Positions 2,604-24,384 of a stretch of 25,277 nt of DNA are shown piece by piece. The stretch comes from Saccoglossus kowalevskii (taxonomy: Eukaryota; Hemichordata; Enteropneusta; Harrimaniidae). Made by a program: the position numbers and the translations under genes. The notes under the pieces are model-generated. The model ran no database searches. It was not told the DNA's origin and was given only the letters and a program-made list of their open reading frames with translations. The DNA is taken from contig NW_003151293.1 of assembly GCF_000003605.2 (NCBI RefSeq), positions 1 to 25,277 of the forward strand, written 5' to 3'. Positions within the stretch are counted from its first letter, which is position 1, and every line of letters starts with the position of its first letter.

Positions 2604-2741
2604 TTATTTCCTTTTTGCTTGATATTTTACCATATTCTTGCAATGCAACCCATCAAGTGTATGAAAGTCCTTTTCAACACCTGTTTGACACTTTCTTTCC
2701 ATGACTGAGCCCATTATAAGAAAAGCACTTAGACTTGATTT
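2604..2741 (-). CDS. Exon: kinase-like tail, part 2 and stop
   Basis: This 138-nt exon, phase 0, follows an excellent acceptor (catttgctttcag) and ends with TAA. It encodes 45 residues beginning [11 protein letters not shown], which aligns with the kinase segment vkLsDFGla; the magnesium-binding DFG Asp is Ala. After a short activation loop, [10 protein letters not shown] resembles helix alphaF (D-v-w-S-l-G). The protein then stops, missing helices alphaG-alphaI. A possible alternative donor, AATATG|GTAAAA at 2631/2630, could extend the C-lobe, but I found no convincing exon downstream. Confidence 0.65.
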   Translation of the reverse strand, partial: KSSLSAFLIMGSVMERKCQTGVEKDFHTLDGLHCKNMVKYQAKRK

Positions 2742-5700
2742 CTGAAAGCAAATGATATCAATATTTACTGCTGCACTGTATTTTCAGTGTAAAATATGAT
2801 AGTTAATGTTGGTGCTGACTGACCAGTCTACACTTATATGAAACTCAATGCAGACCAACATAAAATGAATAGTATATGACAATACACGTTCTTACATCTT
2901 TCGTATCAATATATATGTTTGTCATATCAACATTGCCATGACAACAGCCGCCACAATGAAGTGTATGTAGAGCGATGTCTATATCATGTAAGACTGTTTG
3001 CCAATGGTCTTCATTGATTATTCGATTATCAGTAAAGTTATCCAATCGATATTCAGTCCACGTTTCAATATCCAAAATCCCCGACCAGCACAGTCGGCTA
3101 ATAGCAATAAAGCGTAACTGTTCAAACTGAATCCGTTTACCTAACAGACGAGAATGTATTATTTATTTATATTTGTGTACACCCACATGCTTGAGTGATA
3201 AGACAATTTAAACTGAATTATTCACGTGATATAAATTGTTATTTGTTGCACGACACATTCTCCAGTAGGTCAAGTTAATGTGTGATGATGGCCGACGGAA
3301 GATGTCTGATTTACATTATCATCGAATAAAACGTTTAGTTCGCCATTGGTCAACTGATCGAAGTATTAACGCAGTCGTATATTGAGAACTCACCTACTTC
3401 CCGTTTCCTTCCTTTCTTGGATGAAGTCGCTTTCCTGAATGGAGCAGTCCCAATTACTTTTAAATCGGGCAATATTATTGAATAAAATATGGGGTTGAAT
3501 ATTGAACGCAATGGCAAAAACGTGGCGGCAATCCACTGCAAAGCAACACAGCTGATATTAACTCCAGCTAATCCCAAAAATCCTGGCAATGATATTGGCA
3601 CCTGGCAAATCATATTAATCAGTATTATAAATACAATTCTTGTAAGCATTTTGGCTTGTTCATTAGGTTTTCGATTTTCGCTTCTAATGCGTTTTCTTGA
3701 ATTAACAAACTTTTGGTATATGCCACAATAGCATACCATAACAGCAACGTTGCATGGTATATTTAGGACGTTGTAAAATAGAAATGAGTACTTCCAAGCA
3801 GGTTGTTGACCACTGCAGATATAGTATGGCAAACATATAGTAGACATTCCATAAAAATATTCCCCAAAATACGATATACCTATTATAGGTATCACCGAAA
3901 TAATTATATTGTATATCATCGACCCAGCAACAACAGACATAGAGCTTTTTCTATCCACATGCCTTAGCAACAAAGGGAATTTAATGTGTAACCAGCGGTT
4001 GACAGTGAGGAAAGTCAAAATGTGCATGGACATTTGATTAGATATGACAGCTATGATTCCACTTATCTTGCACAGTGTACTGACCCGCCAGGTAATGGCG
4101 TACAAAATGAATTGGTTTCCATAATACGCACCAACCACACCAATCGTCAAGAGATACAAACCAAAGAAAAAATCTGAATAGGACAAGACTAAAATGAAAA
4201 ATGAATCAACCGACGGTTCCAAATGGATATTCAGTTTAGAGAACCGAGACATAATTGTTGTTAAATTCAATAAAACGACAAGAAGTCCAAACACCCAATA
4301 GCAAATTTGTATAACAGGAGATGCAAACAAGTTTCTCCCGCAAGACAAATTCATGTTTTCTTCTGGAACACATGTTTGTAGCTGCACTCCATGAAATTTA
4401 GCCAAACAGCATATAATATACTCGTCACTGTATCTGCAACAACAAAACACATACTATGTTATACCAATAATTCATCTGACACTAAATAAAAAATAGTTCG
4501 CTTTTTCATCTACTAGATGTAGGCATTGGGGTGAGCAACATTGAATAAACACCCCAATGACACATAATAGGGCGTGAAAAATATTTAATCAATAACGATG
4601 CATGGTTAAAATGTGACATGCAATTTGATTTTATTGCACTGAACATGATAATTAGTATCAACAGTAGTGTTACCAAATAAGATATTATTAAGTATATTGG
4701 AGGTCGTCGAATAAAATAGAATACTGGACAACCAAATTGCGGGAAGTAATACAGCTATATAACTTAAAAAATGTACCCCATATGTCATTTCTCGTATTCA
4801 GAATGACATAGAATGTTTTGCCTCACATATACATGATTGAATAAGGTTGTCTTACTTACAGTATGCGCATGGATTTCAGAGCTGTGAATAAGTCTTCTGT
4901 GAAATGCGTGATTCTATTTAGCCGGATGTCTCTGTAAAATATAAACAACTCGACATCATTCATAGAAGATGCCAACCTCTACTAGGATTTTAATACCAAC
5001 ACTCTACAGAGCTACAGTTGATGTAGAGCAGTTATGAACGGAAAAGTGCTTGGTAGGGCTGTGACAATCCTTTCTAAGTAGGTTTTGCATGGAGAACATA
5101 TGTGTAAAGATGGTACATATATTGTTGTCACTGTTATTTTGACCTTTGATTCCAAAATGTAACAATGTCTTGTGGAAAACATCTACTAAATTCGAACGTG
5201 TCTTGAAAATACACAAACACATGTGACCTTAACGTTTGACCCATGTCTCCACAATACGGGCATTTACTGTAGCTCAATAATGAGCAAACATAAACACACA
5301 CCCTGACAATAACATTTGGCCGTGTGTCAGCCAAGTTTAACCCATGGAGACCACGTGTGTCAATTGTGAAGATGCTGTCTGTTTTTCCCATTTTAATAAG
5401 ATTATTAGAAACATATTCACTGCCAGAAAAGTCACAAGGTAAATGTCATGCTTGTGCACAAAACAGTGCATATGCATAATCATATACTTTCTCGTTAATT
5501 TAATGAAACATGTTAACTTCTACAAATTTTACGATTGGCGTTGTCAATAGTATTTCCATTTTACGTACAGTGCTGCATGTCGTAATAAGATCGAGCCTAT
5601 TTCAATTTTTACCACATTCTGTCCGTGTTCGTGATTGCACTAGTTTTTATATGCGGTGAGAAATTGTCGGCTTGGCAGTAATATGTTTGTCTAAACTTCT

Positions 5701-8700
5701 CAACTGTTAGCTCAGCCATCTACATGCTGCCAATACAACATTATATAAAATTTTATTTCGCTGATTTTCCTATATCAAATATCACAGTATTATGTCCAAA
5801 AATAGGGTCAACATGCCTATTTCAATTCATAAAAAGAACTATAAATAATTGCGAAACATGGCGTGTTCTTTTGTCAGTTTTACACGCGGACCAATCATGA
5901 ATTATCATGTGAAATGTAAAATAATTATTTACATCACGCGTTCACGGTGACTTAAAAAAATATGTTACATTATGCATGTCGCGTACAACAACAAAAGCGA
6001 CAGGCATGTACACGATCCACCACAATAACTAAAATAAACATATGAATCTAATTAAATTTAGAGACCGCATGGCATTGATATTGGGCATTTTCAGTTTATT
6101 GGGATTTATTAGTTAGCTGTTAGCGTTTAATATAGACAAAATATGAACATAATATTGTAGTTTGAAGTTAACATATCATTCATGTACTCATAACTTAATA
6201 TAACTTACAAATAACGAAGACGAGCAAGACCAGTAAACGTGTGGTCAGTCAGCTGCTGTATACTATTATTGTAAAGATTTCTAAAAAGCAAATTATACTA
6301 TGCAAATATTAGTTATATTAAACATATTTTTTGTTATGTTTGATTCACGTTTTTTATGTCTTTTTTATTTCAAACACTGTTGATTGTGGTGATTGTCACT
6401 ACAGGTCTGTGAATACGATTTATATCCTTTTTGTATAGGTAGAATTTACAGGGCGTTGTGCTCAATAACGAAGTTACAATGAAAGACTTCACTTCAGTAA
6501 CGTCAACTTACAATATAAGGAGATTGTCCATCCCAGAGAATACGTCATCCTTGAGTTCTGCTATTTCATTAGAAGATAAATCACTATCGAACGAAACGAA
6601 CAAGTTTTAAATATACATTTTATATTTATTCAAGCGAATATATATTTTTTTAATATTGTCAAATATGCAGAGTCTGTGTTACAGAATTGTTGATACTTAC
6701 AGCAGTCCTAGATACGGTAGGTCACCAAATACTATATCAATTGAACGACTCACATTAATGTGTAGGTTACTGACATTCCTGGAATTTATAGAAAGGCAAA
6801 ATCTTGATTCTTTTATGCCCTGCATTGTCATCATTCAAAATTGTTCAGAATATTGATAAACAAATAGAGTGACATTCAATGTCTCGAATGACATTTTCAA
6901 GTATTGTAATTTTTGATTATGAATTACTAGTATATGGCGGAGCTTGATTGTAATTTTTTATTTCGCATTTCATGGAAACTCTATCAAATGCGTAACAAAC
7001 AATATATATTCTTTGTCATTTGACATTATGTAATTTTACTTACAAACTTCTCGTACTTGAATGAATGAGACTCAGTGAAAATTCCGAGGCATTGGAGCAA
7101 CTAACATCAAAACCTTTACAAACACACCCATCTTGGCATTTAACGTCTGAACAAAAGACACAGAGAGAAGTTCAATGCACAAGTATTGTAATTAACATAA
7201 AATATAGCATTTAACAATTTAAATCTATCATTTCATGAATTATTTGCCAGTCATCTTCTTGTCAGGTAATTCAACATTGCGCGATACATATTAAAGTCAC
7301 TGGATAAAAATATTTTGAAAATTATATCATTGCACTGTTGTAACATTGTGTATATAGGTTTGTGTTTTTAAATACATGCTTGGTAAATTATTGTAGACAA
7401 TAGAATTAATGTTCCTTGTAAGCATATACTTACTACAATAATATTCATCATCTCCATTATCACAATGATGTATACCATCACAAACGTTAGAAGAATACAC
7501 GCATATTTTGGAATGCTTACATCTATATGTACCATCTGGACATTTGTAATCATCTGCAGAGTAAAACAGTTCATGTAAAGAGTCCTAGAACCTCATCAGA
7601 ATATTACATTCAATAACATTATTATAAAATGAACAAATTGCGCAACACCCCAAATTCATATTGTAACTTTACTTTCATATGTTAGCACCAGTTCGCCATG
7701 GCAAAGAAAAACCATTGAATAATGTTATCTATTGCCATCACAACAATTTGCATTATTATAATTAAGTATTTGCTTAAACTAGCCACGCACATGATAATAA
7801 CAATTGTTCTTCCCTCTTGTATTGAACAATTGATTTTATAATAGTAAGAATTAAATCAATCTGACCAAAGTTAATTAAAGTACAATAGTAAAAAAAAACA
7901 TTTATCTCATAGAACACAATTTGATAAGACAGGTCAACAATTCATCTTTCATCATTTGCAGTTTGATCTATACATAAGTGCGGGTACCAAGAGTTAATGA
8001 ACAAACCACAGGTCATTCAGAGATATAAAAAGTGAATCGCGCCTTATTATTTTGGAATGATCTGAACACATAATTATTGTTATATCCAAGACAACCAACA
8101 AGTTAAATAGGAACACACTAAAAGCAACGCGTTCTAGGACGTTAACTCACCGCATTCAATTTCATCTTCGCCATCTGGGCAGTCATGTTCGCCATTACAC
8201 CTCAAATGTATGGGAATACAGTAAGTATCAGGGCATTTGTACATGTATTCCGGGCACGTAAAATTCCCTTAAAAGTGCAAATAGAAACAGCACTGCAGTA
8301 ATGTCAGACAATATGCAATTAAAACATTAAAATTATACACATTAAAAAGTATGACATATTATGCAAACGTGTAATTCCAAAATGATGATACTGTAACAAA
8401 ACCTTGTATTGCATGATTATGCATTAAGCGCACATGTTACCCTGCAATGTAAGTCACTTAAAGAGTTAATACTATGGTACAAAAAACACACACACACAGT
8501 GTGTACCATCATTATTTTAAAAATCGTCTTGTCGTATGAATGACATCATTTAAAAAAAACAAGCTATTTAAAACGCACCATATTTGTTTCTTTTTTATAA
8601 ATACGGTAAGAATTGTATGTGTTTATTTTTTATAACATTGAGCATTGGTGAGTTTTATTCAACTTTATGTTATGTAACTTTTAAATACATGTGTATGTGG

Positions 8701-11700
8701 GCGTAACATAAATAAATACTGTCAGAAATACATATATGTTATGCACAATATCTAAAGACACTAACGATAATTGGCCAATCATAATTGGTAAAGTCCTATC
8801 ATCACAAAAGTTTGTGGATTAACCATATAGTTCACCATTTGCACGTTTGAATAAACATACACAGTGAGACAAATAAAGTAATTACAAACATACCACAGTT
8901 ATTCAAATGCCAAGCATCGCGACAACCTTTCATATAACCCATATCATCAATATCATAAACACATTGATTACTCTTCTCGACACAAGCACCATTTTTACAA
9001 CGTATCTGATCGTCGCGGCACTGGAGAAATTCTGCTGAGAAAGTACAAAAACATATTCAAGATGTCTGAGCTCTGTTCGAATATACTAAACTGTATATAA
9101 ACCATACAATTCTTACCGCAGTATGCCTCATCTGGTGCATTCTCCTTCTCACAGTAAGCACAGTCAGTAATCCCATCACATTTAACAGTTGAATGTAGAC
9201 AACTAGTGTCAAGACATTTGATACCATGACATACATCTGTGATAAGAGAAGCATGTTTGTATGTGTTACATTCGAAAAAAATAAGGTTAGTTCCATGTTA
9301 AATACAGTGAACATTGTAAACGCTCATCGGTGTTCATTTTTTGCACTATGTACAACAATGTACATCATTTTCGTCTACGACAACGATGCGTAATACTGTT
9401 GAAAAGATTTTAGAACAATTGGCTGCCATTTACCGTTTGTTACACAGTCTACTTCGTCACTACCATCGATACAGTCAGCATGTGCATCACATTGCCTTTT
9501 AACATCGATACATTGACCGTTATTGCAGAGGAAAGTATCAGATCGATTCGCACAAGACGTGAAATCTTGTGAAAACAGATGAGTAAAGATTATATTACTA
9601 TTAAAATAAATAACAATTTAAACAGGGTTGCTCAGAAAAATGATTAGTCGATGTCTATATGTTCCTATAATTATTAGGATGGGAGTTTTGTACATTATCA
9701 GTGAAACAAAGCCTGGTTGTACGGAACTAGCTAATTAAGCAAACCCATGCCAGTACATTGATTGGAAGGAATAAATGATTAAATAAACAAAACCTAACCG
9801 CATCCTAGCTCATCCGAGGAATCGTCACAGTCAGTTTCCGAATTACAGTACTTCGAGTAAGGAATAGTTGCTGTGTTGTTACATATAAAACCATTAAACT
9901 CATTGTCTAGAGTGAAGATTAACAAAACTAAGATTTGTTAGTTTGTAAATTATTTGAGTGTGATCAGTGAAATGCTCCATGATCGTTAGTATACGTGTTG
10001 ATTAAACACTGAAACATGTTGAACACGTGGATTAAAACGCAGTATCACAACGTTATTCTTTTCGACTTTTAAGGTATTACAAGGTTAACACGCCACACAA
10101 TCGCGCCCTTCAACATATAATTCTGGCTTGCTTATAAGCAATCAATTTAGCTATTGGGTTTGTACGGAGTTATCTTCTGTAATGAATTGTGCAATAATAG
10201 AAAAACCAACAAAACGTTACCACACATCAGTTCATCACTGTTGTCATAACAATTTTTTTCGTTGTCACAAACGTCAGCAAAATGAATACATTCACCACTT
10301 CTGCATTGATAAAGGTGTGATGGACAATGAACGTGCTCTAATGAAAGACAATGTACAAGTTGTGTTACTATATTTCGTTAGGTAAATGTATGTAAATATA
10401 AGTATGATATGTCTTTGTCAGCCTTGCTAAGTGCAATCAATTACATATTCATTTTGTTTCATCGGCTGTGATTTGTTGGATGAGTTCTACAAGTGAATTT
10501 AATTTATCAAATTGTTTGCTTGGTTACATATACTGAGTAATGTAAGTTCCTCATACCTTTGTCGTCAGTGATGTTTTTTATAGATTTCACGGCAACTAAA
10601 AACATTATAGGAAAATAATTTTAAAAAACATAGTATCATAGTACAAAATAGTATCATAAAAAGTGTAAATTATTGTTATTTCAATAATAATACATTCGCT
10701 TTTGGGTTATAATGTTTATACTTGCCTCTTTTATGAGTTAAACCTATTCTGCTTTTTTTACATATAAATTGATTAGTTTTATTCGAGTGACACGCAAAAT
10801 CATGCCAGTGAGTTAAAGAATGTAAGTCAGTCAGATAGATAGCAATACAGTTTTCAAACACACCCCCGTTAGGTTGGTGACTGAAAGTAAATAGAAAAAG
10901 TACTTATAGTATATGTATTTAGTAGCATGTATGTAATCATATTGATTGTAGGAATATATGGTTATCTATAATATATATTGAGTAATAGTATTTAGATTTT
11001 CCACTGGATAGATATTTATGAATCTATTAGAGTAATTATTCACCTCTTAAGATCCCAATCTGTGTAGTTCATAGGACGGCCATTTTCCCATTTGTAAACT
11101 CCTTCCGTCATTTTGTCAGACAAACCTGAACGTAACAAATGTAAATATTATGTTCATCAAAATAAAGATATTGAAAACACATCATTGTGGTATAATAAAT
11201 AATAAAATAACTTATCTATTGATTGTTTTGGGTTTTTTTATTTTTAGAAACAATGAATCATGAAATAAACACAATACAACACCATTTTTTTAAGTATTTT
11301 GTATGCATTAAAATAACTGCATGGCCTTCGCTTGGTAAAGTCATTACATTATGTTGTCGTCAATATTGTATTTGTGAACAATGTTCGCATATTTTTCAAT
11401 GAAGTTTACAATAGTATGAAGCATATCTTTGACGAACATGTTTGAGAGTTGGGGCCCCAGAATAGGTACACTGGATGTGTGCTTGTAACATACTGATTTG
11501 TATAGCAAAAATAATAATTATGTTTTCAAAAGACGTTTGACAGAAGACCCAATCTACCATGCTATATTAGTATAGTACAGAGCCTGAATTTTCGTCACAC
11601 TGCCACCGACCCTTCAAAATAAAGTTTTAATTGTTCTTATTCGGCACATGTTAATGTCACACATCAGTCACAGATGTTATTCGTTGATGAAAATGCGATG

Positions 11701-14700: not shown

Positions 14701-16256
14701 AACAGTCTTACTACACCAACCTGATCGAAGACCATGTTCATGATCAACAATTCCTATTTCGCATCTGTTCAAACTTGTCTGGGAACTCAAATCAGAAACA
14801 GCTACCATCACATAAGTGTGACCAAACACTTGCCAATTTAGCAATTTTTTATCAATAAGATCAAAGATATCCGTGACAAACTAGACTCGATTAGAAATGT
14901 CAATATTCTGCCGGATATAGAAACTACATCCACCTCCACTTTTCATGCTTTCAGGACCACTAATACAGATGAACTATCCGATATTATTAGTAAGTCAACA
15001 TCGAAACCGTGCCGCGTGGATCCTATTCCAACAACACTATTCAAACATTGTCTTGGAAAACTGGTACACAAACTCAATGATATAATTAACATCTCTCTAC
15101 GTCTTGGAATTGTACTAGAGTTCATGAAAACTGCAATCGTCACACCTTCACTGAAGAAACCGTCACTCGACAGCAACATAATTAAACATTACCGTCCTAT
15201 CCCAAATCTATCATTTACTTCCAATATCCTGAAGAAAGTCGTAGTGCTACAACTGAATTCATATCTTTCTGAACATTCATTACTTGAACCTTTACAATCT
15301 GCATATAGGAGATTTTATAGTACCGAAACAGCACTTCTAAAGGTTCACAATGACATTTACATGTCGCTTGACTCAATGTGTATTTATTATCCTTCTGGAT
15401 TTATCCGCAGCCTTCGATACAATTGACCATGATATACTTCTGAGAAGACTGTTCAACCTTGGAATTACTGATACTCCACTTCTCTGGTTAACTTCTTATC
15501 TGTAGGATCGTCATCAGCGTGTTCCATCAATGATAGTCGCTCCGCTTCTCATGTACTTAAAACCGGAGTTCCCTAAGGGTCTGTTCTAGGACCTCTACTA
15601 TTCTCCATTTATATATCACACTAGGTCAACTTATTCGTCGTCATAGCGTTAATATCCATCAGTATGCTGATGACAACCAACTCTACATCGCCTTCTCATA
15701 CTCTGATACACCGTCTTCAGTCAGCATACTTGAAAGTACAGCTCGTGACATTAAATCATGGATGTCATGCAACAAATTAAAGTTGAATGATGATAAAACT
15801 GAGGCTCTTCTAATTAGATCACCGTTTAACCGCACCCCTTGCCCAATAGATAATATTCTCATTGGTTCCAGCGTTATCCAACTCACTGAGATGGCAAGAA
15901 ATATCGGGGTCATCTTTGATCATCATCACAGCTTCAAGAAGCACATATCTGCAACATGTCAGTCTATATACTTTCGGCTACGTAAAATTGATCACATACG
16001 ACGCTTCCATGTACAATAATTAATCATGCATTAATATCTTCAAAATTTGATTACGGCAAATCACTTCTATTCAGACTACAATAGAACACTACAAAGTCAC
16101 TACAGCAAGAATTGTGACACACACAAAGAAACATGAACATATTACACCGATTCTACAAGATTTGCATTGGCTACTAAACACTTTTAACAACTAGACATCT
16201 ATGTACAGCGCTATTGAACATTACCTTGTTTTGGATACTGGCGCTTTATAAATTAC

Positions 16257-16312
<56 letters not shown>

Positions 16313-19300
16313 ATTGTGACCAAGCCTTAAAACCTTGAACTAAGCAGTGCAATAAAAGTGGAGTTATATTCAATATTCAAGTCTGAAAAAATATAGTGTC
16401 AAAATTAAGAGATAGTTTATATACAGTCTTTCCCATCACAAACCCAGAATTTGAAAGCTATGTATGGTCATGTTTTATGTACAATTTTCCCTATATTACC
16501 TAGAAGAATTAGCAAGTGACGACCAAGTGAAATCAACAGGGGATTTGGAGATGAAGGAATGAATGACTATTGGCTGAAAATCTAGCTGATACAGGGGGGT
16601 TGTGAATTCTAGAGTTCTATTGAGAGAACCTACCAAGGAGGATTTGGGCAAACAAGAATGCATATTATTCGTAGATTACGCAGAAACTCCCATGCCTTTG
16701 CCTATTCCAACATAAGAAGGTGAGGGAACTAGCTTGGGTATATTACAGCAGGGAATTCGGCTGCTCTGACAGTACTGAAAACAAAATCACTCAATAAACA
16801 TGTGAAGAATAGAAAGCAGTTTGCCGTTTGACAGGCATAAGAAAGTCAAAAAGTACAGTATATTACCAAGGTGGCAGAGCCCAAGAGGTTTAGGAGCGAA
16901 ATAGTTGACAAAGAAGATTGGAATACGCTACAGTGATATGAGTATAAAGTAAGGCAAGTAAACGACGTTCATAATACTATGTGTTACCAGAAGCCAAAAA
17001 GATATGTTGTCAAAATTATGATTAATCGTCAAACAGACACATGTTAGATAGTTATGCATATATGCTAGTGTCCTGTGTGTGGTCCTTTAAATTATGTTGA
17101 TAATAGGTATATAATGATCAGAACTCCCTATATTCTGTATTTGTAAAACACTTCAGTGAAAATAATACCGGCAACAGTACTTACCAATATACGTCCATCC
17201 GAATTGTATGTAAGAAATCATCTGATGAATAAATCGTGCTTCATATTCATTACTTATATCTGTCAATGTTGCACCAGATTTGTGGCAGATTTCCATTGCT
17301 TCACTGAACAAAAGTTTGGATGGCATACTGAATAAACGATAGCAGGAGCCCATATAATTATCCCAGTGTATGGGGCACACAGAATCTATAAAATAAGGAC
17401 ATGTGAATAGAGGTATAATCTAAGAAGGATAAATGCATTTATAGAGACTGAATGCTGGCTATTTGGCTTAATAAAAAATATGCACAAACACACACCATAC
17501 ACATACACCCAGTTGCTTACTTAAACTATCGGCAACCCTATATTTTCTGAATAAATGCACACATAACATATGAACATATGTTTGATTTAATATTGTTCCC
17601 GATTCCAGCTTGATTGCCATGGAAATTGGCCTGGATTTCTGTCTCAATAAGGCAAAGTCAGCTGCCGTACAAGTGATGATAAAATAAAATCGATTTACTA
17701 GTATTCGCCGATATTTACTATGGGGGGGCCATCAATTTTGGATGGGACTTCAAACTGAATAATGAGACAGCTTTCTTTAAATCAGGAAAAAAAATCCAAA
17801 TTTTCACAGTCAAACGAACCGATTGAGAAGAATTAGGTCAACCGCTAACAAAATCCCGTTAATACCTAATTACACGAAGAACATAAAACACTTTCTTGAG
17901 TATTTGAAACCGAAATCTGTGATAACTATAAGACCGTCGCTGGTTGGCTCATGAGTTTGATGACGATTTCATATATGGAAATGGCGCCCCAATCACAAAT
18001 ACATCGTAAGTAAATGCACACATAATATATGAAAATACCTTCTTGATTTAACGAGCTTTCCGATTCTATCTTGATAGATATAAAGGTATATTTCGCCATA
18101 AATCCGATGCTATTGTCGTCATGGTTGTCGGATGTGAAAAAGATCAGTAGATGGTGAAAGTCAGACTTAATTGTTCGAAGTGGCATATTCCGATTGCAAT
18201 AGCGTACTTTGTTCCACTCATCCCTTGTCTGACCATTATATACTTCTACGTAGTCAGTCTGACATTCTTTGCTAGATCTTCCTACATCGAATTCAACAAA
18301 CTCCAAAGCGACATACTCATTTACTGGTGACTCGATTAACCAGGAGCACTGGAGATGCTTCTTGTATGGTGCAGGATAGTCTATTGAGGAAATTACCCCA
18401 GGTGTGTTTGTACATTTTAATTTCTGACCACACACTCTGCTGATGTTGCCACACTCCAATACTTCTACAGGTGTGTAATGCAAGTCAGATTAGCTCGTGT
18501 ATCGACAGTGTGGTCTATGAAGGATCAGTCCGAAACAAGTTTTCGTTAAATTTAATTTACTAAATGTACAATAGTTAACGCTATGCTTTGCAAATTCTGC
18601 AAACGTTATCGATATGATACCGTTACAATTACTTACCATCTGTGAGACGAATATAATAATCCCAGTGTAAAGACTCATATATTATATAACTTTGATCTCC
18701 CATCCAATGTGTATACGGACCAAACATACATGTACTTTGAAGAGTATCATAAGCCATATATCGACATTTAAATCGTGTTTCTTCCATACACAATATTCGA
18801 CATGCCTCAATGCTCAAATAAAAATGACCTGTAGCACTCCTGTTATCCAGGGAGTCTGCTGTATCTTCAAGAAACATTTCTCCTTTTCTTACATAAAAGT
18901 CAGAATGTAAACTCCCTGATGCAAAAACACAAAGATATATTTTGTTTAATGTGTTATTTTAATGATCATATTGATGAAATAAAAAATTGGCATTATGCGA
19001 GTCAATACACAAGTACACCTTAGATGCAAATGGCCTTTAAGGTAGAGATGCATGTTCGTGGGCACTTTTTTTTTTTTTTGCTTTTTATTATCCAAAAAGT
19101 CTTAGCTATAGACTGTTGAAATTTTGTAGAATTGTGAATAGTCGAACATACTCAAAAACAATTTCAAAATATAGATAACAGGTGCAAAATTATCTCTTTT
19201 TAAATGCTAAGCAAGATTTAGCAAGGCTGTATATAAATAATAAAAAAACATGGTGAAAACAAGAAATGACGGAATCTTCATATTATGCACTGTATTTAAC

Positions 19301-22300
19301 TTTTTACAAAACGATAATACATTTAAATTTGAAACAGCCATTTGAATTATGAGCATTAGCAAACTTCTTACTGAGTTAAATTAGCAATTATCTCAGCTTA
19401 CTTTTAGTGCACATTCCAGAACTTTAAAAAAATAGCTCCTAGACACTTTGACCTTTTGTTTTGAAATTTTCACAAATGATTGACAATGTGTTTATCTTCA
19501 AAACGCCGTCGGGCATTGTTTTTAGTTGAATAGTGTTACAACAATCGTACAGACAACTAGCCTGGGTGTTAATTTATGCATAAACTTGAAGTAGTGATAT
19601 TTGAGCTGCTGTCCTACAAAATTGACAACTGGTAGACAGTTTTCAAGACGGCGCTTTCTTCATAGTAAACAGATGTACCCATAAACCAATTTTGACAGGA
19701 AACAGAAGCATGGTTTAGAAGCTAATTTTTTTTAAATCACTTTTGACCAAAAAAGCACATTTTTGTGCATATTTCAAACTATAGTGTCCATAAAAATAAA
19801 ATACTAACAAAACTTTAAAATTCATACAATAAGCTTTCCGAAAATATATAGTTTTGTGGACAAGGGAGGTCATCTTGGTTTCTTAATTAACTAATTAAAA
19901 TACCTGTCAGGTAAACTGCATCTCTACCTTAAGAGCATGATCTATTTTTTCCCCTAAAAAATTCACACCTCCACCCCTTAAACGACATCGAGGGACTACT
20001 ATTTGAGGGACAATAATTCGTCGCGGCCACTTGGGTCTATTAGAAGAAAATTTAAAGTCTTGTTTGATCTAGGATATGATACAATGTCATCAGAATAGTT
20101 TCCATGCCACACAAATCAGACTAAATAAAGCATTGTGAGTAAACGCTATCGCTAACGCCAAATTAATGAAATGTCCTGTATCCCACAGCACAGCACAGTA
20201 ATACAAATTCTATAATATAAATGTATGCATATTATGGCAAAATTATTGAGTTAACAAGATTTTAAGCACAACTTTTGTATTATCATTTTATGACACAAAA
20301 GTCTACAACGCTTTATCGAAAGAAAGGATGACGTTGATTGTGACGTGGGAATAAATATAAATGCTTATTTTACCGGGTGTGTTCGCACTCGACCAGATAT
20401 CTATCCCTAAAAGGACAATGGAATGCACCAGGCTGTCGTAAAAATGTTATTCCTGGGTAAGGATACATTGTTGCAACATCTTGTATTAGCTTGATTAATT
20501 GATATTATAATAATGTATAGCAATATTGTTAGCGAAACAGCGATATAATTTGCATCACTGCACAGCGGATTATTTTCACGATGACAGTAAACTGTCCACA
20601 CACTCTTGAGATATGTGAATATTATGTGTTCGAATAATAATTATGGGATAAAAACATTTGGCTGTCAAATATTTATAAACAGCGATAGCTCCAAACAACC
20701 CTGTGATAGGGTAAGCTTCGTCTTTGCTGTGATATTGGTCTATTATCTACCCAACCTAATATGCCACATCTTACATCAATCTGTGGTGATACACGCACTA
20801 TACATGTATGTGCTGATCTTACCGTCATGTGTGACAAGTGGAAAATAAATTTCAATGAAGCAACCACGTCGTATAGCGATACTATCACGTTGTATTTCGA
20901 CCCGCAGTGAACGTGCCAATATTGTTGGGCATATGTAGTGGAATGATGGCGCGTTTTTCATATTCAATGGTGTGAATACCTGCATAAAACAAAAATATAC
21001 ATAAGATATGTCTAATTTTGTTTATATACCTTTCAGCTGATGTTTACATGTTATTAATTGTCTAAATTCTTACCCTTTTTCTTCCTATACTGTCGAGTAA
21101 AAAATTCCAATTTCCTTCATTAACCCTGTATGCCAATTTATATGTCCCTATACCAATGAGTTCAGGTTTTGCACCAATTATCCGTAAAGTTAGTACTGCA
21201 ATAGCCAATATTGATTTTTGCTGTCCAAAATAAATTTCCATAAAAGGCAAAGGATCCTCGAATCGTGGATATAGTACACCAACATGATGGCTTGACATTA
21301 AGATGTTATTCAATCTTAGTATTCTCAGCATATTCGACAGTCCACCAATTACAAATGGTTGATCCACCTGTTCACTCGATTTTAACACTTGCTCAATACT
21401 AATTCTGCCATCTTCCATTCCATAAGGTATATATGTAATTGGACAGGTACTTTCTGAAACATTTTACAGATATTATATTATATTATATTATATTATATTA
21501 TATTATATTATATTATATTATATTATATTATATTATATTATATTATATTATATTATATTATATTATATTATATTATATTATATTATTGCTTTTAATAAAT
21601 TATGTAACTATCATAAACTTTTGAAAAAAGAATGTATATAATTTGTCACAAATACGCTTGTCATCATGTGAAATCGTCTCTGTAATGAACAAATTATAAG
21701 TAATTACAAATAAATTTAAATAATACATTTCTATCAATTCGAAACTACTTTGCATATGATGTTTGCTGAATGACTTTTTACATGGATGGTACCTGTGTTA
21801 CGAGTACAAAAGGCGTGTGCGTCTAGATTGATGGATCCACTTCGAGACCTCAGAACTGGATATTGGTAATATAAATGTTGCCAATCGGTACTTGTGAAAA
21901 CATTACTAAAAGAAATGATATGTATCCTTTCGATTGTCCAATGATATTCCATGGTTTCATAACCAAACCATAACGAATTTTTCACGTCATCAAATGACGA
22001 TAATGTCGCGTTATATGTCTGGCAGACTCTAACGGCTTCATCATAGGTGAATCGTCCACGGACAGAAAAGGCAATTGCTGAATAGATATAATTTGAGTTA
22101 TCGAAGTTATTAAACGTGAGTAAGAATGTATTTATGAGATTGGATAGATGAGTGCACAGCAAGAAAATTAAAATATCTCTTCACAGACATGCATGTATTG
22201 TACACATGCGAACATTCGTATGAATCATGGAAAATCTAAATGTAGGAGGGAGTAATGATTTGTTTTTTAATGTAATTTGTTTCGTTTCTTGAACTATATA

Positions 22301-24384
22301 AGTCTATCTGGAATTAAATGTAATTTAATATTAGTATTTATTCGTTACATCACACATCCAAAACTTTTAACTGATCAAGTTCATATTTAGCATGTAACAT
22401 ATATGGCACCACTTTTGATTATTGACAACAGAGACAACACGTTTGGCCATTTGTTTCTTGCAAATGTGTTTACCAAACAACTTGATATTTAGTACATAAC
22501 ATGTTTTTCCATAACTTCTTACGAGGACAAATTATTATCGATATCAGTCACTTGGTTTGACCGTTATCTTGTATTTCCCCTAAACAGACAATTTATCATA
22601 AATATTTCAATTGATAAACCTATTTTTTGTATATAACTTGTATTACAGAGCTTCTTATAAAAATACTAATATATAATTTTGAGCAGTCACATGGTTAGGC
22701 CGCAATTTCCGGCAAAAATGGCAACATTTTGGGGCATTTGTTTATTTCTCATGACTTATATGAAAAGTAAAACGAGTTTTAATTGTCACGTGATTTCGGC
22801 ACCATTTAGCATTTTTTCAAAGAAATTGCCAAAATGTATAGTGTTTGGTGGAATGTATTCATTTTACAATAATTGCATGCAATAATAGCTTATTGATGGC
22901 ACTGCACAAAGTATACCTGTCACTACACCTCAAGTGCACACCATCCATTCAATGGAATGCTATAATTTTTTTCTGTCCTGACAGAGAAAACTGGTACACC
23001 TGACTTTCAAAATTGTGATTGGCCACGTGGTCCGGAGAGTCCATTTAAAGCTATACCGAAACATCCTTTCAGTGGTATCAACACTGTAATAAATATTTAA
23101 ATAAGTAATATTTAAGGGTCAAGTCAACTGTTGTGTTTAAGTTCAGTTTATGCTTTCTTCTTTCTTCTCGTTTGCTAGTATCTATATGTAAAGCACATTA
23201 GGCTGGCCATGTGGTTTGAATTTCTTCTACACAGGGTGTTGTTGTGAAATGATTTTGTGCCGATTTTGATTTGCCGATTTGAGAAAAATATAATTATTTT
23301 GGCCAGTCACGTGGTTTCACTGTTATTTTTGTCGAAAAATGCTAGAAATGTTAAACATTTGTTTGGCAGAAATGTTTGGATTTCAGGCAGAAATTACCAC
23401 ATTTTGGGACATTTGTTTCTCATGTATGACCAAGAAAAGTGAAATATTTTTAATCAGTCACGTGGTTTGACAACCATCTTGAAATTTCAGCAAAAATGGC
23501 TACAATTTGAGGAGTGCTTCTTCTCGATCGACTTGATATTTTATAAATAACATTTAATGCTAAAGCCTATTGTAGAAAATGTTGAATCACATGGGCTGGC
23601 CTCAACCTTGGATTCTCAGCAAAAATGGGGAAAGTGTGGCTCATGTCTGTCTCATTGATGCTTTAGCAGACCATCAACAAAGCAACCTCCGAGAAAAAAT
23701 AGTAGATATATTAGTGGGTATAGCTTTACAACTTTATTGGGCATTGTCAGTGTGACAAATGATTTATTCAAATGAAAATCTCAATCATGATATTTGTAAT
23801 TGATATAACCATGTACATTATTGAAACAGGATACTCACCTAACTCACAGTCATAACCAGTAAAACCAATATCGCAAATGCAAGTATACGAATCGAACATT
23901 GGAACGCATGTTCCATTATTTTTACATGATGAACTGTCACATAAATGTAGTTTTGGGTAATCTATAATATAATCAAAATAATACAATTTTGAATTGTAAC
24001 ATTTTATTTCATCTCAAATTTAGCAGCAATCAACAGTATGCGAACACCTGAAAAATTTTGTCAAATGTGTGATTTTTTAAAAGTGATTATTATGTGACCC
24101 CAAACACATACCACAGTATTGTCCTGGTGATCCTATGGAACATTTTCCTTTCGTAGTGTAGCGTGAATAACACACCGTTGCATTGTCTGTAAAGTCTCCA
24201 AAGTCTATTCGTCGACAGTAGTTGCCATAAAAAATGCCCTGCAATCTGTATATATTAGTATTCATATCTGTGTAACCATGCAGAATTGTTTCCCAGAATT
24301 CACATTGGACGCCATTTTGCATGACATTCTTTACACCGCGATAATCGTCTTTGTATGGAGCCCAGTGACATTCACCAATACCAC
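2604..24384 (-). CDS. Multidomain LDLa/LRR G-protein-coupled receptor with pseudokinase tail (26 exons, 5' partial)
   Basis: This is the chain of all minus-strand exons, listed singly below. Spliced coding length is 5,057 nt, about 1,684 residues, ending at TAA (2606-2604). Approximate residues from the first visible one: kringle 1-91, EGF 92-132, Link-like 133-227, discoidin 228-406, PAN 407-499, CUB 500-641, C-type lectin 642-781, linker 782-794, seven LDLa-type repeats 795-1079, LRR 1080-1211, 7TM 1212-1558, kinase-like tail 1559-1684. Most ectodomain modules are bounded by phase-1 introns, the LRR exons by phase-2 introns. The LDLa-LRR-7TM part follows the GRL101/relaxin-receptor plan; the ligand is unknown. 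No start codon or signal peptide is visible, so the gene continues past the right edge. It could instead be two adjacent genes, but no stop, start or promoter-like break appears in the chain. Confidence 0.85.
2896..3140 (-). CDS. Exon: kinase-like tail, part 1 (degenerate catalytic loop)
   Basis: This 245-nt exon follows acceptor ttctcgtctgttag in phase 1 and ends in phase 0 at AAAGAT|GTAAGA. Joined to the 7TM exon it reads [19 protein letters not shown]. Residues [15 protein letters not shown] resemble strands beta4-beta5 and the hinge of a protein kinase. [18 protein letters not shown] resembles helix alphaE, and [12 protein letters not shown] aligns with the catalytic loop HRDLKxxNxxx. The catalytic Asp is Asn and the Lys is Asp; only the His and the late Asn are kept. 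The glycine loop and beta3 lysine are absent. I infer an inactive, truncated kinase fold. Confidence 0.7.
3394..4433 (-). CDS. Exon: seven-transmembrane GPCR domain (LGR/GRL101 type)
   Basis: This 1,040-nt exon follows acceptor tttgttgttgcag (phase 2) and ends at AAGTAG|GTGAGT (phase 1). All helices are visible: TM1 around [16 protein letters not shown]2 with [10 protein letters not shown]3 with conserved LCKISG and an NRW motif in place of DRY/ERW, TM4 around [18 protein letters not shown]2 cysteine in TICLPY, TM5 around [17 protein letters not shown]6 [16 protein letters not shown], and TM7 FNPIFYS (NPxxY). Class A, leucine-rich-repeat subgroup. The open frame runs on about 15 codons past the donor, but that stretch is intron. 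The positively charged SSKKGRKRE tail leads into the kinase-like exons. Confidence 0.93.
4860..4931 (-). CDS. Exon: leucine-rich repeat 4 (72 nt)
   Basis: This 72-nt exon is phase 2 to 2, with acceptor tattttacag and donor ATACT|GTAAGT. It encodes [20 protein letters not shown] then MRIL. It joins the 7TM exon as [13 protein letters not shown], the hinge sequence seen between LRRs and helix 1 in LGR and relaxin receptors (..TDEY..CC). Confidence 0.92.
4932..6208 (-). other. Intron between LRR 3 and LRR 4
   Basis: This is about 1.28 kb. On the minus strand 5391-5004 has two overlapping open frames of about 85 and 72 codons with unusually few stops for this AT content. Neither has acceptor/donor sites in phase with the LRR exons, nor a domain I recognise. 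An old transposon fragment is possible. The rest is AT-rich and featureless. Confidence 0.5.
6209..6280 (-). CDS. Exon: leucine-rich repeat 3 (72 nt)
   Basis: This 72-nt exon is phase 2 to 2, with acceptor tttgctttttag and donor TTATTT|GTAAGT. It encodes [20 protein letters not shown] then LRYL, a canonical typical-type LRR. The next repeat exon is about 1.3 kb away. Confidence 0.92.
6512..6583 (-). CDS. Exon: leucine-rich repeat 2 (72 nt)
   Basis: This exon is exactly 72 nt, phase 2 to 2, with acceptor tttcgttcgatag and donor ATATT|GTAAGT. It encodes [20 protein letters not shown] then LLIL, a canonical 24-residue repeat with the LxxNxI core and F..L cap. One repeat per 72-nt phase-2 exon is the known gene structure of glycoprotein-hormone and relaxin-type LGRs. 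Confidence 0.92.
6701..6778 (-). CDS. Exon: leucine-rich repeat 1 (78 nt)
   Basis: This exon is phase 2 to 2, with acceptor ataaattccag and donor CTGCT|GTAAGT. It encodes [20 protein letters not shown] then PYLGLL. It is a divergent LRR, 6 nt longer than the 72-nt exons that follow. The first repeat after the cap is commonly irregular. Confidence 0.8.
7044..7146 (-). CDS. Exon: LRR N-terminal cap
   Basis: The exon is 103 nt, entering in phase 1 and leaving in phase 2, with acceptor cttttgttcag and donor AGTTT|GTAAGT. It encodes [20 protein letters not shown], the CxxxCxCxG..V.C pattern of the cysteine-rich cap that starts LRR stacks in LGR-type receptors. The phase change from 1 to 2 here marks the switch from shuffled ectodomain modules to the LRR exon series. 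Confidence 0.88.
7434..7553 (-). CDS. Exon: LDLa repeat 7
   Basis: This 120-nt exon is phase 1 to 1, with acceptor tttactctgcag and donor TGTA|GTAAGT. It encodes [20 protein letters not shown], then [18 protein letters not shown], a complete LDLa module with GDDE in place of SDE. It is the last repeat before the LRR cap and joins as YYC-N-VKCQDGC. Confidence 0.92.
7554..8150 (-). other. Intron between LDLa 6 and LDLa 7
   Basis: This is about 600 nt of AT-rich sequence. No additional LDLa exon or repeat was found on reading all frames. Confidence 0.55.
8151..8267 (-). CDS. Exon: LDLa repeat 6
   Basis: This 117-nt exon is phase 1 to 1, with acceptor tgcacttttaag and donor TGCG|GTGAGT. It encodes [20 protein letters not shown], then [17 protein letters not shown]. 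It is a complete six-cysteine LDLa with the calcium-cage run CPDGEDE. It joins in frame to repeat 5 (NNC-G-NFTC) and repeat 7 (EC-D-DYKC), and an NFT glycosylation sequon spans the first junction. Confidence 0.92.
8268..8893 (-). other. Intron between LDLa 5 and LDLa 6, with a small hairpin
   Basis: This is about 625 nt with no extra exon seen. Near 8474-8510 a short CA run lies inside an imperfect palindrome (atggtaca ... tgtgtaccat) that could form a hairpin. It looks like a simple-repeat accident rather than a functional site. Confidence 0.5.
8894..9034 (-). CDS. Exon: LDLa repeat 5 (divergent, long)
   Basis: This 141-nt exon, phase 1 to 1, ends at TGTG|GTATGT. It encodes [20 protein letters not shown], then [20 protein letters not shown] and LNNC. 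The first half is a good LDLa. The second half keeps an acidic DIDD but lacks SDE and has an insertion before the last cysteines. The acceptor is a tandem CAGCAG, so the start may be 9034 or 9031, changing one residue. Confidence 0.8.
9117..9236 (-). CDS. Exon: LDLa repeat 4 (atypical)
   Basis: This 120-nt exon is phase 1 to 1, with acceptor ctcttatcacag and donor TGCG|GTAAGA. It encodes [20 protein letters not shown], then [19 protein letters not shown]. The LDLa core is clear, but an extra cysteine (AYC) and a stretched acidic loop (EKENAPDE) replace DGSDE. Calcium binding may therefore be altered. There is no frameshift and both splice sites are good. Confidence 0.85.
9434..9565 (-). CDS. 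Exon: LDLa repeat 3
   Basis: This 132-nt exon is phase 1 to 1, with acceptor gttttcacaag and donor AACG|GTAAAT. It encodes [20 protein letters not shown], then [18 protein letters not shown]. It is a complete six-cysteine LDLa repeat with the SDE signature. A possible N-glycosylation site (NRS) precedes the second cysteine. Confidence 0.92.
9799..9906 (-). CDS. Exon: LDLa-like repeat 2 (reduced cysteines)
   Basis: The exon is 108 nt, phase 1 to 1, with acceptor cttcactctag and donor TGCG|GTTAGG. It encodes [20 protein letters not shown] then [14 protein letters not shown]. The acidic calcium end DCDDSSDE..C is kept, but only four cysteines remain: the usual first cysteine and the C.....C pair around PYS are altered. 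Low-cysteine LDLa modules of this kind are plausible in GRL101-like receptors. The donor is non-optimal at +3/+4. Confidence 0.8.
10221..10337 (-). CDS. Exon: LDLa repeat 1
   Basis: This 117-nt exon is phase 1 to 1, with acceptor tttcattag and donor TGTG|GTAACG. It encodes [20 protein letters not shown], then [16 protein letters not shown]. All six LDLa cysteines and the calcium-cage acidic run CDN...DNSDE are present. In LDL-receptor-type modules this fold binds ligands through a Ca-stabilised acidic loop. Confidence 0.92.
10557..10595 (-). CDS. Mini-exon: 13-residue linker
   Basis: This 39-nt exon lies between acceptor ataatgtttttag and donor AAAG|GTATGA, phase 1 on both sides. It encodes [12 protein letters not shown] with a possible N-glycosylation site (NIT). 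No domain is recognised. Skipping it would keep the frame, so it may be a cassette exon. It links the lectin domain to the first LDLa repeat. The call rests on splice signals and phase only. Confidence 0.55.
10744..10880 (-). CDS. Exon: C-type lectin-like domain, part 3
   Basis: The exon starts 1 nt into a codon after acceptor ttactttcag. It encodes [19 protein letters not shown], then [11 protein letters not shown] and NQFICKKS, the CTLD end ..p....E.C.......W.d..C.....FIC. The sugar-site motif reads QPN with WHD in place of the usual EPN/QPD and WND, so sugar binding is uncertain. The donor is drawn at ATAG|GTTTAA. A second donor 18 nt downstream, AGAG|GCAAGT (exon end 10726), is a GC-AG type, also phase 1, and looks stronger apart from the GC. 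Confidence 0.85.
11044..11125 (-). CDS. Exon: C-type lectin-like domain, part 2
   Basis: This 82-nt exon (phase 1 in, phase 2 out) has acceptor gttacgttcag and donor AAGAG|GTGAAT. It encodes [20 protein letters not shown] then YTDWDLK, the central CTLD block GL.d...eg.w.W.dG.p..yt.W. It is a short exon that depends entirely on its neighbours for identification, and the frame fits both sides perfectly. Confidence 0.92.
12400..12640 (-). mobile_element. tRNA-derived SINE-like element
   Basis: Read on the minus strand, ggtatcatagtgg (12620-12608) resembles a pol III A box of tRNA origin, and aagttcaaatt (12577-12567) resembles a B box (GGTTCGANTCC) at about the right distance. Between them cactcatgatcggtagaccc resembles a tRNA body. 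The 3' body and exact ends are not defined. It is degraded and probably silent. Confidence 0.55.
13570..16310 (+). mobile_element. Degraded CR1/L2-clade LINE
   Basis: An endonuclease domain is visible from about 13800 ([19 protein letters not shown], then [10 protein letters not shown], and DFNLHLDD further on). A reverse transcriptase follows at about 15000-15700, with [55 protein letters not shown] and [12 protein letters not shown]. The order, the wording of these motifs and the 3' end (ggcgctttataaattacg then a TTA array) fit the L2/CR1 group. Frameshifts near 14090 and 15390 and an in-frame stop after LTSYL break the ORF, so the copy is dead. It lies antisense to the host gene inside the lectin intron. 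The 5' end is approximate. Confidence 0.85.
16257..16310 (+). repeat. TTA trinucleotide microsatellite (LINE tail)
   Basis: About 17 uninterrupted copies of ATT/TTA directly follow the LINE 3' end. Short tandem repeats at this position are the usual tail of L2/CR1-type elements, and the run has probably expanded since insertion. Confidence 0.9.
17185..17385 (-). CDS. Exon: C-type lectin-like domain, part 1
   Basis: The exon is 201 nt, phase 1 to 1, with acceptor ttattttatag and donor ATTG|GTAAGT. It encodes [17 protein letters not shown], then [29 protein letters not shown] and GWTYIG, the textbook first half of a CTLD (C....W....SCY.......A...C...gA.L..i....e..f). The WIGL strand is completed only by splicing across the 6-kb intron to the next exon, giving WTYI-GLSDK. 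Confidence 0.92.
17552..17615 (-). pseudogene. Decayed partial copy of CUB exon 3' end
   Basis: This stretch resembles 18011-18074, the end of the CUB exon plus the start of its intron, at roughly three quarters identity by eye. Shared blocks include taaatgcacacataa, ttgatttaa, ccgattc and cttgat. The copy lies in the same orientation about 460 nt away, in the intron between CUB and CTLD. It lacks an intact donor and open frame, so it looks like the remnant of a local tandem duplication. Confidence 0.6.
18039..18464 (-). CDS. Exon: CUB domain
   Basis: This 426-nt exon, phase 1 to 1, follows acceptor acacctgtag and ends at AAGAAG|GTATTT. CUB hallmarks are clear: [42 protein letters not shown], then [17 protein letters not shown]. 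The four core cysteines are present, and the acidic residues in FVEFD, TDYVEV and TSDNHD fit a calcium-binding CUB site. A partial decayed copy of the 3' end of this exon and its donor-side intron lies near 17552-17615. CUB modules usually mediate extracellular protein binding. Confidence 0.9.
18637..18915 (-). CDS. Exon: PAN/apple-like domain
   Basis: The exon is 279 nt, phase 1 to 1, with acceptor ttttgcatcag and donor GATG|GTAAGT. Its cysteine pattern, [20 protein letters not shown] then STCMFG, matches the four-cysteine PAN/apple core C...C....F.C....y......C. PAN modules mediate protein or carbohydrate contacts in plasminogen-family proteins and many invertebrate surface proteins. It lies between discoidin and CUB. 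The domain call rests on the cysteine spacing, which I read by eye. Confidence 0.75.
18916..20822 (-). other. Intron between discoidin and PAN exons
   Basis: This 1.9-kb intron contains the inverted-repeat element at 19041-19928. The remaining part, 19933-20822, is AT-rich. A frame at 20601-20407 with a hydrophobic run was read but has no splice-site support. Confidence 0.6.
19041..19928. mobile_element. Non-autonomous DNA transposon (TIR element, TTAA target site)
   Basis: The left end reads GGTAGAGATGCA (19041-19052). The right end is its exact reverse complement, TGCATCTCTACC (19917-19928). Each end is flanked by TTAA (19037-19040 and 19929-19932), as expected for a 4-bp target-site duplication. 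The 888-bp interior has no long open frame, so it is non-autonomous. TTAA duplication is the hallmark of the piggyBac superfamily, although these termini do not start with the CCC-type ends most familiar there. Confidence 0.8.
20823..20979 (-). CDS. Exon: discoidin / F5/8 type C domain, last part
   Basis: This 157-nt exon starts in phase 0 (acceptor ttttatgcag) and ends in phase 1 (GACG|GTAAGA). It joins in frame as GRKR-VFTPLN. The segment [20 protein letters not shown] followed by [10 protein letters not shown] matches the discoidin C-terminal signature P.i.AR.iRi.....lR.El. Other frames of this stretch hit stops. The closing cysteine sits inside the last strand rather than just after it, a minor deviation. 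It joins onward to the PAN exon 1.9 kb away. Confidence 0.8.
21074..21453 (-). CDS. Exon: discoidin / F5/8 type C domain, first part
   Basis: This 380-nt exon starts in phase 1 after acceptor aatgtttcag and ends in phase 0 at AAAAAGG|GTAAGA. It begins [18 protein letters not shown], matching the classic discoidin opening C..pLGMEdg.I...qi.aSS. Later [17 protein letters not shown] fits the W-qvDLg..- .i.gi strands, and [17 protein letters not shown] fits the v..y.l.yS.dg..W stretch. Discoidin domains bind phospholipid, collagen or glycans. The second half is in the next exon. Confidence 0.85.
21471..21587. repeat. TATTA pentanucleotide microsatellite
   Basis: About 23 near-perfect tandem copies of TATTA. 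On the gene's strand the array is (TAATA)n and ends only 17 nt upstream of the discoidin exon acceptor, so it occupies the branch-point region. The long plus-strand frame encoding repeated IILYY is an artefact of this array. Confidence 0.97.
21793..22077 (-). CDS. Exon: Link-like (hyaluronan-binding type) domain
   Basis: The exon is 285 nt, phase 1 to 1, with acceptor tatctattcag and donor ACAG|GTACCA. It encodes [26 protein letters not shown] and [11 protein letters not shown], then AFCTRN near the end. This follows the Link (Xlink) pattern of F-eA..C, ATL and G-E..yGW. Only the outer cysteine pair is obvious; the inner pair seen in CD44, TSG-6 and aggrecan Link modules is missing. A C-type-lectin-like fold is the alternative. 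The donor is weaker than its neighbours, and reading through it would add a short tail and a stop. Confidence 0.65.
22078..23838 (-). other. Intron between EGF and Link-like exons
   Basis: This is a 1.76-kb intron. Much of 22360-23640 is made of a diverged interspersed/tandem repeat described separately. No additional exon with phase-1 borders was found. Confidence 0.6.
22360..23640 (+). repeat. Diverged repeat family with CAGTCACGTGG core
   Basis: A shared unit recurs in direct orientation: cAGTCACGTGGTTTGAC, then an ATTTCAGCAAAAATGGC-like block, then ttTTGGGGCATTTGTTTCTC, then a CTTGATATTT...ATAACAT block. Unit starts are visible near 22545, 22684, 22785, 23202, 23304, 23454 and 23586, with several spacings of 100-150 nt. 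Copies are strongly diverged, and some carry CACATGG or CACTTGG instead of CACGTGG. It looks like an old satellite or nested repeat. Confidence 0.65.
23839..23961 (-). CDS. Exon: EGF-like domain
   Basis: This 123-nt exon has phase 1 on both sides, acceptor tatattatag and donor TTAG|GTGAGT. It encodes a standard EGF module with six cysteines: [13 protein letters not shown], then YTCIC and GYDCEL. The GFTGYDC ending is typical. No clear Ca-binding DxxE start is present. The kringle exon joins to it as [12 protein letters not shown], and it joins onward to the Link-like exon. Confidence 0.9.
   Translation of the reverse strand: MTQNYIYVTVHHVKIMEHAFQCSIRILAFAILVLLVMTVS
24112..24384 (-). CDS. Exon: kringle domain
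   Basis: The exon (273 nt, phase 1 to 1) follows acceptor tttattgcag and ends at TGTG|GTATGT. All six canonical kringle cysteines are visible, in GEC, VQCEFW, GNYCRR, VCYSR, GKC and QYC. The QxW-like CEFW and the NYCRR motif are diagnostic. Kringles are extracellular ligand-binding modules best known from plasminogen, ROR kinases and HGF. This is the first exon found in the window. The 2-nt start means at least one upstream exon is missing. Confidence 0.85.

Follow-up and report, generated by a model that had tools for sequence, protein, structure and literature searches.

The window, by which we mean the whole 25,277-base stretch of DNA analysed here (the first part of the 46,039-base contig C4150 of a 572-Mb genome, which gene content marks as that of an animal), probably carries one gene for a one-chain type C2 LGR. 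To an LDLa-LRR-7TM core this receptor would add kringle, EGF, Link, discoidin, PAN, CUB and C-type lectin modules on the outer side and a short kinase-derived tail on the inner side. It is very probable that a single gene runs from the kringle to the tail, and independent support for the chain comes from paralogs with the same modules in the same order and on the same strand. If expressed as one chain, the product would, to our knowledge, have one of the most elaborate ectodomains among class A GPCRs.

An LDLa array and LRRs ahead of an LGR-type rhodopsin-class 7TM are found, as here, in the GRL101 or type C2 LGRs (Lymnaea GRL101, arthropod LGR5, echinoderm GRL101), to which the window gene adds seven kinds of outer module and the kinase-derived tail. 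For Lymnaea GRL101 the portion of the report available to us gives 12 LDLa modules and 6 LRRs (PMC8286064), compared with 7 LDLa and 4 LRR exons here. According to the available sections of a report on Biomphalaria, GRL101-like receptors of this snail form a multigene family whose proteins join a C-type lectin to LDLa, LRR and 7TM; their genes cluster in a schistosome-resistance locus, and for 11 of the 12 that were predicted the report describes aligned RNA (PMC12297450). These SudRes2 receptors thus share CTLD, LDLa, LRR and 7TM in one protein with the window gene, whereas the main text on them makes no mention of kringle, CUB or discoidin (PMC12297450).

The closest solved 7TM is that of the vertebrate relaxin receptors RXFP1 and RXFP2, type C1 LGRs with the same LDLa-LRR-7TM order. 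These receptors carry a single LDLa and, as far as we know, have neither a mosaic ectodomain nor a kinase-like tail. The part of the literature available to us describes their N-terminal LDLa module (PMC5468325), to be set against seven LDLa exons in the window.

The first-pass annotation took LDLa-LRR-7TM receptors as known, but knew of none that also has kringle, Link, discoidin, PAN, CUB and C-type lectin modules and a kinase-like tail. The CTLD-LDLa-LRR-7TM core is known from the Biomphalaria sections cited above; as to the other outer modules and the tail, neither a GPCR with the complete series from kringle to 7TM nor a kinase-like tail on an LGR was found in the open literature searched, while annotations may already hold one of the former.

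Exon chain and module identity

The gene consists of 26 exons on the minus strand, running from 24384 to 2604, with the modules ordered from N to C terminus as kringle, EGF, Link, discoidin, PAN, CUB, C-type lectin, seven LDLa, LRRs, 7TM and kinase-like tail (Table 1). All of the modules named by the first-pass annotation were recovered in their place, strand and order. Its 25 junctions are likewise phase-compatible, 24 with GT-AG sites and one with GC-AG (the donor after the last CTLD exon, at 10726), and the spliced product has 1,689 open codons with no internal stop. As phase and splice score guided the choice of these junctions, phase agreement within the window proves little.

Table 1. 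Exons of the window gene, in order of transcription, with window coordinates
Feature	Position	Strand	Evidence
Kringle-like exon (six cysteines, YRG, NYCR-type core)	24112..24384	-	Pfam Kringle 2.6e-4, below cut-off; homologous exons at C4224, C46
EGF-like exon	23839..23961	-	Pfam EGF 1.3e-7; C4224 exon 64% identical
Link exon	21793..22077	-	Xlink 6.3e-4, below cut-off; collinear C46 exon above cut-off
Discoidin (F5/8 C) exon, first part	21074..21453	-	No Pfam match alone; profile with C167 homolog
Discoidin exon, second part	20823..20979	-	Two-exon layout also in C46
PAN/apple exon	18637..18915	-	PAN_1 3.3e-4, below cut-off; C4310 exon above cut-off
CUB exon	18039..18464	-	Pfam CUB 5.8e-22 on ORF, 1.5e-20 on product
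C-type lectin exon, part 1	17185..17385	-	Lectin_C 1.1e-14 on spliced product
C-type lectin exon, part 2	11044..11125	-	
C-type lectin exon, part 3 (QPN and WHD motifs), GC donor	10726..10880	-	
13-codon linker exon, skippable without frame change	10557..10595	-	
LDLa 1 exon	10221..10337	-	
LDLa 2 exon	9799..9906	-	
LDLa 3 exon	9434..9565	-	
LDLa 4 exon	9117..9236	-	
LDLa 5 exon (atypical)	8894..9031	-	
LDLa 6 exon	8151..8267	-	Best Pfam LDLa stretch in product
LDLa 7 exon	7434..7553	-	
Cysteine-rich cap exon preceding LRRs	7044..7146	-	
LRR 1 exon	6701..6778	-	LRR_8 2.5e-22 across LRR region
LRR 2 exon	6512..6583	-	LRR_8 region
LRR 3 exon	6209..6280	-	LRR_8 region
LRR 4 exon	4860..4931	-	Weak C4224 counterpart, E 0.32
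LGR hinge (CC...SC) and seven-transmembrane exon	3394..4433	-	7tm_1 1.9e-15
Kinase-like tail exon, part 1 (kin1; HGN at 2932-2940 replacing HRD)	2896..3140	-	
Last exon, tail part 2 (kin2; AFL replacing DFG) and stop codon	2604..2741	-	

A Pfam run on the spliced product listed LDLa (3.4e-36, with five stretches passing alone, for seven LDLa exons), 7tm_1 (2.3e-14) and EGF (1.6e-5), together with LRR_8, CUB and Lectin_C at the values in Table 1; kringle, Link, discoidin, PAN and kinase were not listed at E <= 0.1. On single exons or frames of the window, kringle, Xlink and PAN (Table 1) and Pkinase (0.03) all fell below the curated cut-offs, and the discoidin exons gave no match. Each of these weak calls is settled by one collinear paralog in which the module passes its cut-off: Kringle (2.7e-9) and Xlink (1.1e-8) at C46, F5_F8_type_C at C167 (2e-6, narrowly above, 28.4 versus 28.2 bits), PAN_1 at C4310 (3.4e-5) and PK_Tyr_Ser-Thr in the tail of C3325 (7.3e-6). 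Other copies of the same modules are weaker, with C46 discoidin (2e-4) and C4224 kringle (0.011) and Link (2.2e-4) below cut-off and no Pfam match for C46 PAN at E <= 0.01.

A two-sequence kringle profile matched apo(a) (2e-4) and Kremen (0.011), and the discoidin profile built from the window and its C167 homolog, whose direct alignment is weak (E 0.017), matched factor V (6.4e-9) and neuropilins. The best PDB match of the Link profile was a mannose-receptor (C-type lectin) chain (2.8e-5), with CD44 at 0.005, and the PAN profile matched plasminogen, HGF and factor XI at E >= 0.03.

The 5' end of the gene lies outside the window. An acceptor at the kringle exon (24385) suggests further coding sequence upstream; the adjoining 4.7 kb (C4150:25278-30026) consist of N, and a homology search for exons upstream of the kringle returned none that was convincing. 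Scanning 349,538 bases, both strands counted, for signal peptides gave a single good candidate, at C4150:32479-32401 (14 at looser limits), outside the window. Because the N stretch separates it from the kringle exon and C46 showed no equivalent, it remains a candidate.

Three minor features of the chain deserve mention. For the 13-codon linker exon no convincing counterpart was seen in the paralogs. A perfect ATATT microsatellite of 23.4 copies (21470-21586) lies in the intron that immediately precedes the first discoidin exon. Between the first two CTLD exons lie remains of a LINE-like retroelement on the plus strand (13746-16019), with endonuclease (5e-8) and reverse transcriptase (1.8e-5, below cut-off) recognised in two of the four frames scanned.

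Receptor class and putative ligand recognition

The 7TM profile built from the window and six paralogs had relaxin receptor 1 as its best match (9.7e-64), followed by TSHR, LHCGR, FSHR and LGR4, all ahead of somatostatin receptors. With its 7tm_1 match above cut-off, the 7TM is therefore of the rhodopsin class and nearest to LGRs, in support of the GRL101- or relaxin-type affiliation proposed earlier. The LRRs stand directly N-terminal to it with a cysteine-rich hinge, whose CC and SC columns are invariant in seven aligned sequences. Several LDLa repeats (seven exons) precede the LRRs, as in type C2 LGRs, and a C-type lectin lies upstream of LDLa 1 together with LDLa, LRR and 7TM, as in SudRes2-type receptors. 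The order LDLa, LRR, 7TM is that given for type C LGRs in the available parts of two reports (PMC4079206, PMC8286064). On module order we class the predicted window gene as a putative type C2 (GRL101-like) LGR and place it as a variant within this type because CTLD-LDLa-LRR-7TM receptors have already been described in Biomphalaria.

What such a receptor would recognise is a matter of weighing two readings. Being nearest to relaxin receptor 1, it could be a hormone receptor for an insulin- or relaxin-like peptide, with outer modules that only tune localisation or ligand capture; in the available portion of his report, Veenstra proposes for GRL101 the role of an IGF receptor that makes use of its LRRs and LDLa repeats (PMC8286064). 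We regard this reading as rather unlikely, given that the outer adhesion and lectin modules are kept across diverged paralogs and that the family has many loci, which indirectly suits diverse ligands better than one hormone.

The other reading, lectin- or adhesion-type sensing as the putative main role, seems to us to stand at somewhat under even chances. Sugars, lipids and matrix are ligands of modules such as the outer ones. Those of the window gene may capture a glycan-bearing or matrix-bound ligand, be it microbial, self or gamete; the LDLa/LRR part would pass binding on to the hinge and 7TM in the manner of relaxin receptors, the latter would signal via G proteins, and the catalytically dead tail could offer a docking or regulatory surface. 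Within the CTLD, the window has QPN and WHD motifs; C4224 and C4310 have QPD. More tentatively still, the loci may form a diversified family of pattern-recognition LGRs, each coupling a multi-lectin/adhesion ectodomain to G proteins and a conserved pseudokinase scaffold in one chain. If this is true, innate recognition would be routed straight to G-protein signalling, and, if the animal is a bilaterian, as its COX1 suggests, the family would provide the first reported kinase-derived fusion to a rhodopsin-class receptor in a non-sponge animal. The gene extends the lectin-bearing GRL101-like receptors of a snail schistosome-resistance locus and offers a system for asking if the recognition of carbohydrates or matrix is linked directly to G proteins in animals.

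Kinase-like tail and gene integrity

Two exons after the 7TM, of which the first is separated from the 7TM exon by only 253 bases, encode a tail of about 127 residues. Active protein kinases have a G-loop, a VAIK lysine, HRD and DFG aspartates and a full C-lobe. In the tail, HGN stands for HRD, and AFL or similar residues occupy the place of DFG. The matched region extends from about the hinge through helix E and the catalytic loop to the DFG position, with no N-lobe and without most of the C-lobe. The tail, which the first-pass annotation took for a pseudokinase, is very probably kinase-derived, as judged from profile and motif comparisons, and is a truncated pseudokinase-like segment rather than a full pseudokinase domain.

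Similar tails follow the 7TM at C4224, C167, C4310, C1352 and C814, and two broken copies keep theirs; at C46 no tail was found. A kinase-like frame also follows the 7TM at C3325; its equivalence rests on place and kinase likeness, since it has no significant similarity to the window tail (best E 7.3). In a genome search with the window kin1 exon at E <= 0.001, the only matches were the exon itself, the two broken copies, C4224 and C167. The last exon of C4224 (fetched piece 1870-2826) lies inside a 318-residue open frame that runs into a lysine/alanine-rich repetitive stretch absent from the window gene.

Against two recent broken copies the tail gave dN/dS values of 0.36 and 0.42 (80 and 58 codons), which suggest constraint, with the proviso that these partners look like pseudogenes and that the values for parts of their 7TM were 0.25, 0.69 and 1.0. 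One such copy, at C4150:33941-35097 on the plus strand, 8.7 kb upstream of the window's end, is inverted, truncated and broken, comprises the 7TM end and tail, and is 71-88% identical by piece. The other, at C1342 (fetched piece 8874-9727, minus strand; 74-86% identical by piece), has an internal deletion that puts the 7TM against the tail. The C4224 paralog, nearly complete in other respects, has an in-frame TAG in its CUB exon (fetched piece 9566-9964). From this stop and the two broken copies it follows that some family members decay.

Whether the window copy is itself silent or decaying was considered in the light of these broken relatives nearby and elsewhere, of the weak scores of several outer modules, and of its reading NRW in TM3 and CQVP in TM6, places at which DRC or CW.P-like motifs are retained in some paralogs. 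LGRs, however, commonly read ERW at the DRY site. With 26 exons free of stops and frame breaks, intact splice sites and a tail dN/dS below 0.5, we judge decay of this copy improbable.

A kinase resemblance arising by chance in an ordinary cytoplasmic tail is less probable again. In favour of chance, the window tail alone reaches Kdo at 0.02-0.03 besides the Pkinase value above, all below the Pfam kinase cut-offs; C4310 gives only Kdo at 0.12, and the C167, C1352 and C814 tails, scanned alone, match no kinase family. C4224, however, gives PK_Tyr_Ser-Thr at 0.009, and C3325 alone passes its cut-off. A profile of seven tails had 416 PDB matches, the best 60 of which were kinases or kinase fusions (two rows being named only MGC80376). 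The top match, at 8e-5, was VRK3, a pseudokinase that likewise has HGN in the alignment. When C3325, the strongest member, was dropped, the best 60 of 152 matches were still kinase or kinase-like chains, with the best E falling back to 0.0011, and the match lay in one register with or without C3325; chance likeness was rejected on these results.

Kinase-related sequence C-terminal to a 7TM has parallels in the GPCR-kinase fusions, namely choanoflagellate GPCR-TKL/K and GPCR-TK, sponge GPCR-TK, and those of oomycetes and amoebozoans, as far as the available part of the source describes them (PMC12716839). There, predicted kinase domains are joined to other 7TM families (PMC12716839, same part); in the window gene, a truncated segment without catalytic residues follows a class A LGR. 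The window gene accordingly falls outside GPCR-TK and GPCR-TKL/K, having a kinase-derived segment and no full kinase domain. Among metazoans, GPCR-tyrosine-kinase fusions have been stated to occur only in sponges. This statement may need qualifying, given a degenerate kinase segment on a class A receptor in the window and at five other loci, and a more kinase-like form at C3325.

Collinear paralogs and the one-chain reading

A genome search with the 7TM exon (E <= 0.001) gave at least 24 matches in 18 contigs, and the flanks were fetched for 8 of the 17 contigs other than that of the window. The paralogous 7TMs are 29-33% identical to that of the window, so the shared module order is probably old. 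The architecture recurs with every ectodomain module type, in the same order and on the same strand, at C4224 and C46, and in part at four further loci: C167 is collinear with the window from EGF onward on the same strand, C4310 and C1352 from PAN within the DNA fetched, and C3325 from CUB, its CUB being weak (1.7e-5). In terms of the eight fetched contigs, kringle is found upstream of the 7TM in two (C4224, C46), EGF, Link and discoidin in three (these and C167), PAN in five (adding C4310 and C1352), CUB and CTLD in six (adding C3325) and LDLa in five, C1352 being N at that place, as it is from after its CTLD up to its 7TM. C814, with 5 kb to the contig end, and the broken copy at C1342 showed no convincing upstream module. 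Preservation is uneven: at C4224 the two discoidin exons can be recognised only weakly (E 0.002 for the first and 1.5 for the second) and LDLa 1 is degenerate, and at C46 one LRR exon only was recognised.

Intron phase was compared without a phase filter for 74 exons at five loci (C4224, C167, C4310, C46, C1352), taking the best splice site near each homologous exon edge. The window's phase was found at 69 of 70 acceptors and at 56 of 62 donors, the remaining donors having another phase (five) or no GT (one).

These comparisons bear on whether the locus comprises two neighbouring genes, one for a secreted or membrane-bound mosaic lectin with the modules from kringle to CTLD and, downstream of it, one for an LDLa-LRR-7TM receptor. 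In favour of two genes, a 6-kb intron with the LINE-like element interrupts the CTLD, and genome-search matches at C1598, C4124 and C1804 form a same-strand series of kringle, CUB and CTLD, with no 7TM match on that strand. On the other hand, only 388 bases separate the last CTLD exon (10726) from LDLa 1 (10337), with a donor and an acceptor that fit in phase; both halves are collinear at C4224, C167, C4310, C3325 and C46; and Biomphalaria GRL101-like proteins unite CTLD and LDLa in one gene in the sections available (PMC12297450). Because diverged paralogs keep order, strand and intron phases, two genes are very unlikely, and the one chain proposed in the first-pass annotation is upheld. An adhesion-class GPCR, a class for which kringle, CUB and EGF are listed (PMC12716839, Table 1, in the part available), was rejected as having a next to negligible chance, since the 7TM matches 7tm_1 and LGRs and no GPS/GAIN or 7tm_2-type family was listed for the product (Pfam, E <= 0.1).

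A tree of eight 7TMs from this genome, built to date the gain or loss of modules, had none of its five inner branches supported, and members with full and partial stacks did not cluster in it. Genome-search matches placed a CUB upstream of the 7TM on one strand at C2733 and, at C4310, a same-strand kringle at 50527-50763, 26 kb upstream of its PAN (24763). Kringle matches were numerous genome-wide (at least 86 at E <= 0.001), often with several per contig. On the mitochondrial contig C4830, the COX1 frame holds TGA codons and lies on the strand opposite to two frames that we take to be ND1 and COX2.
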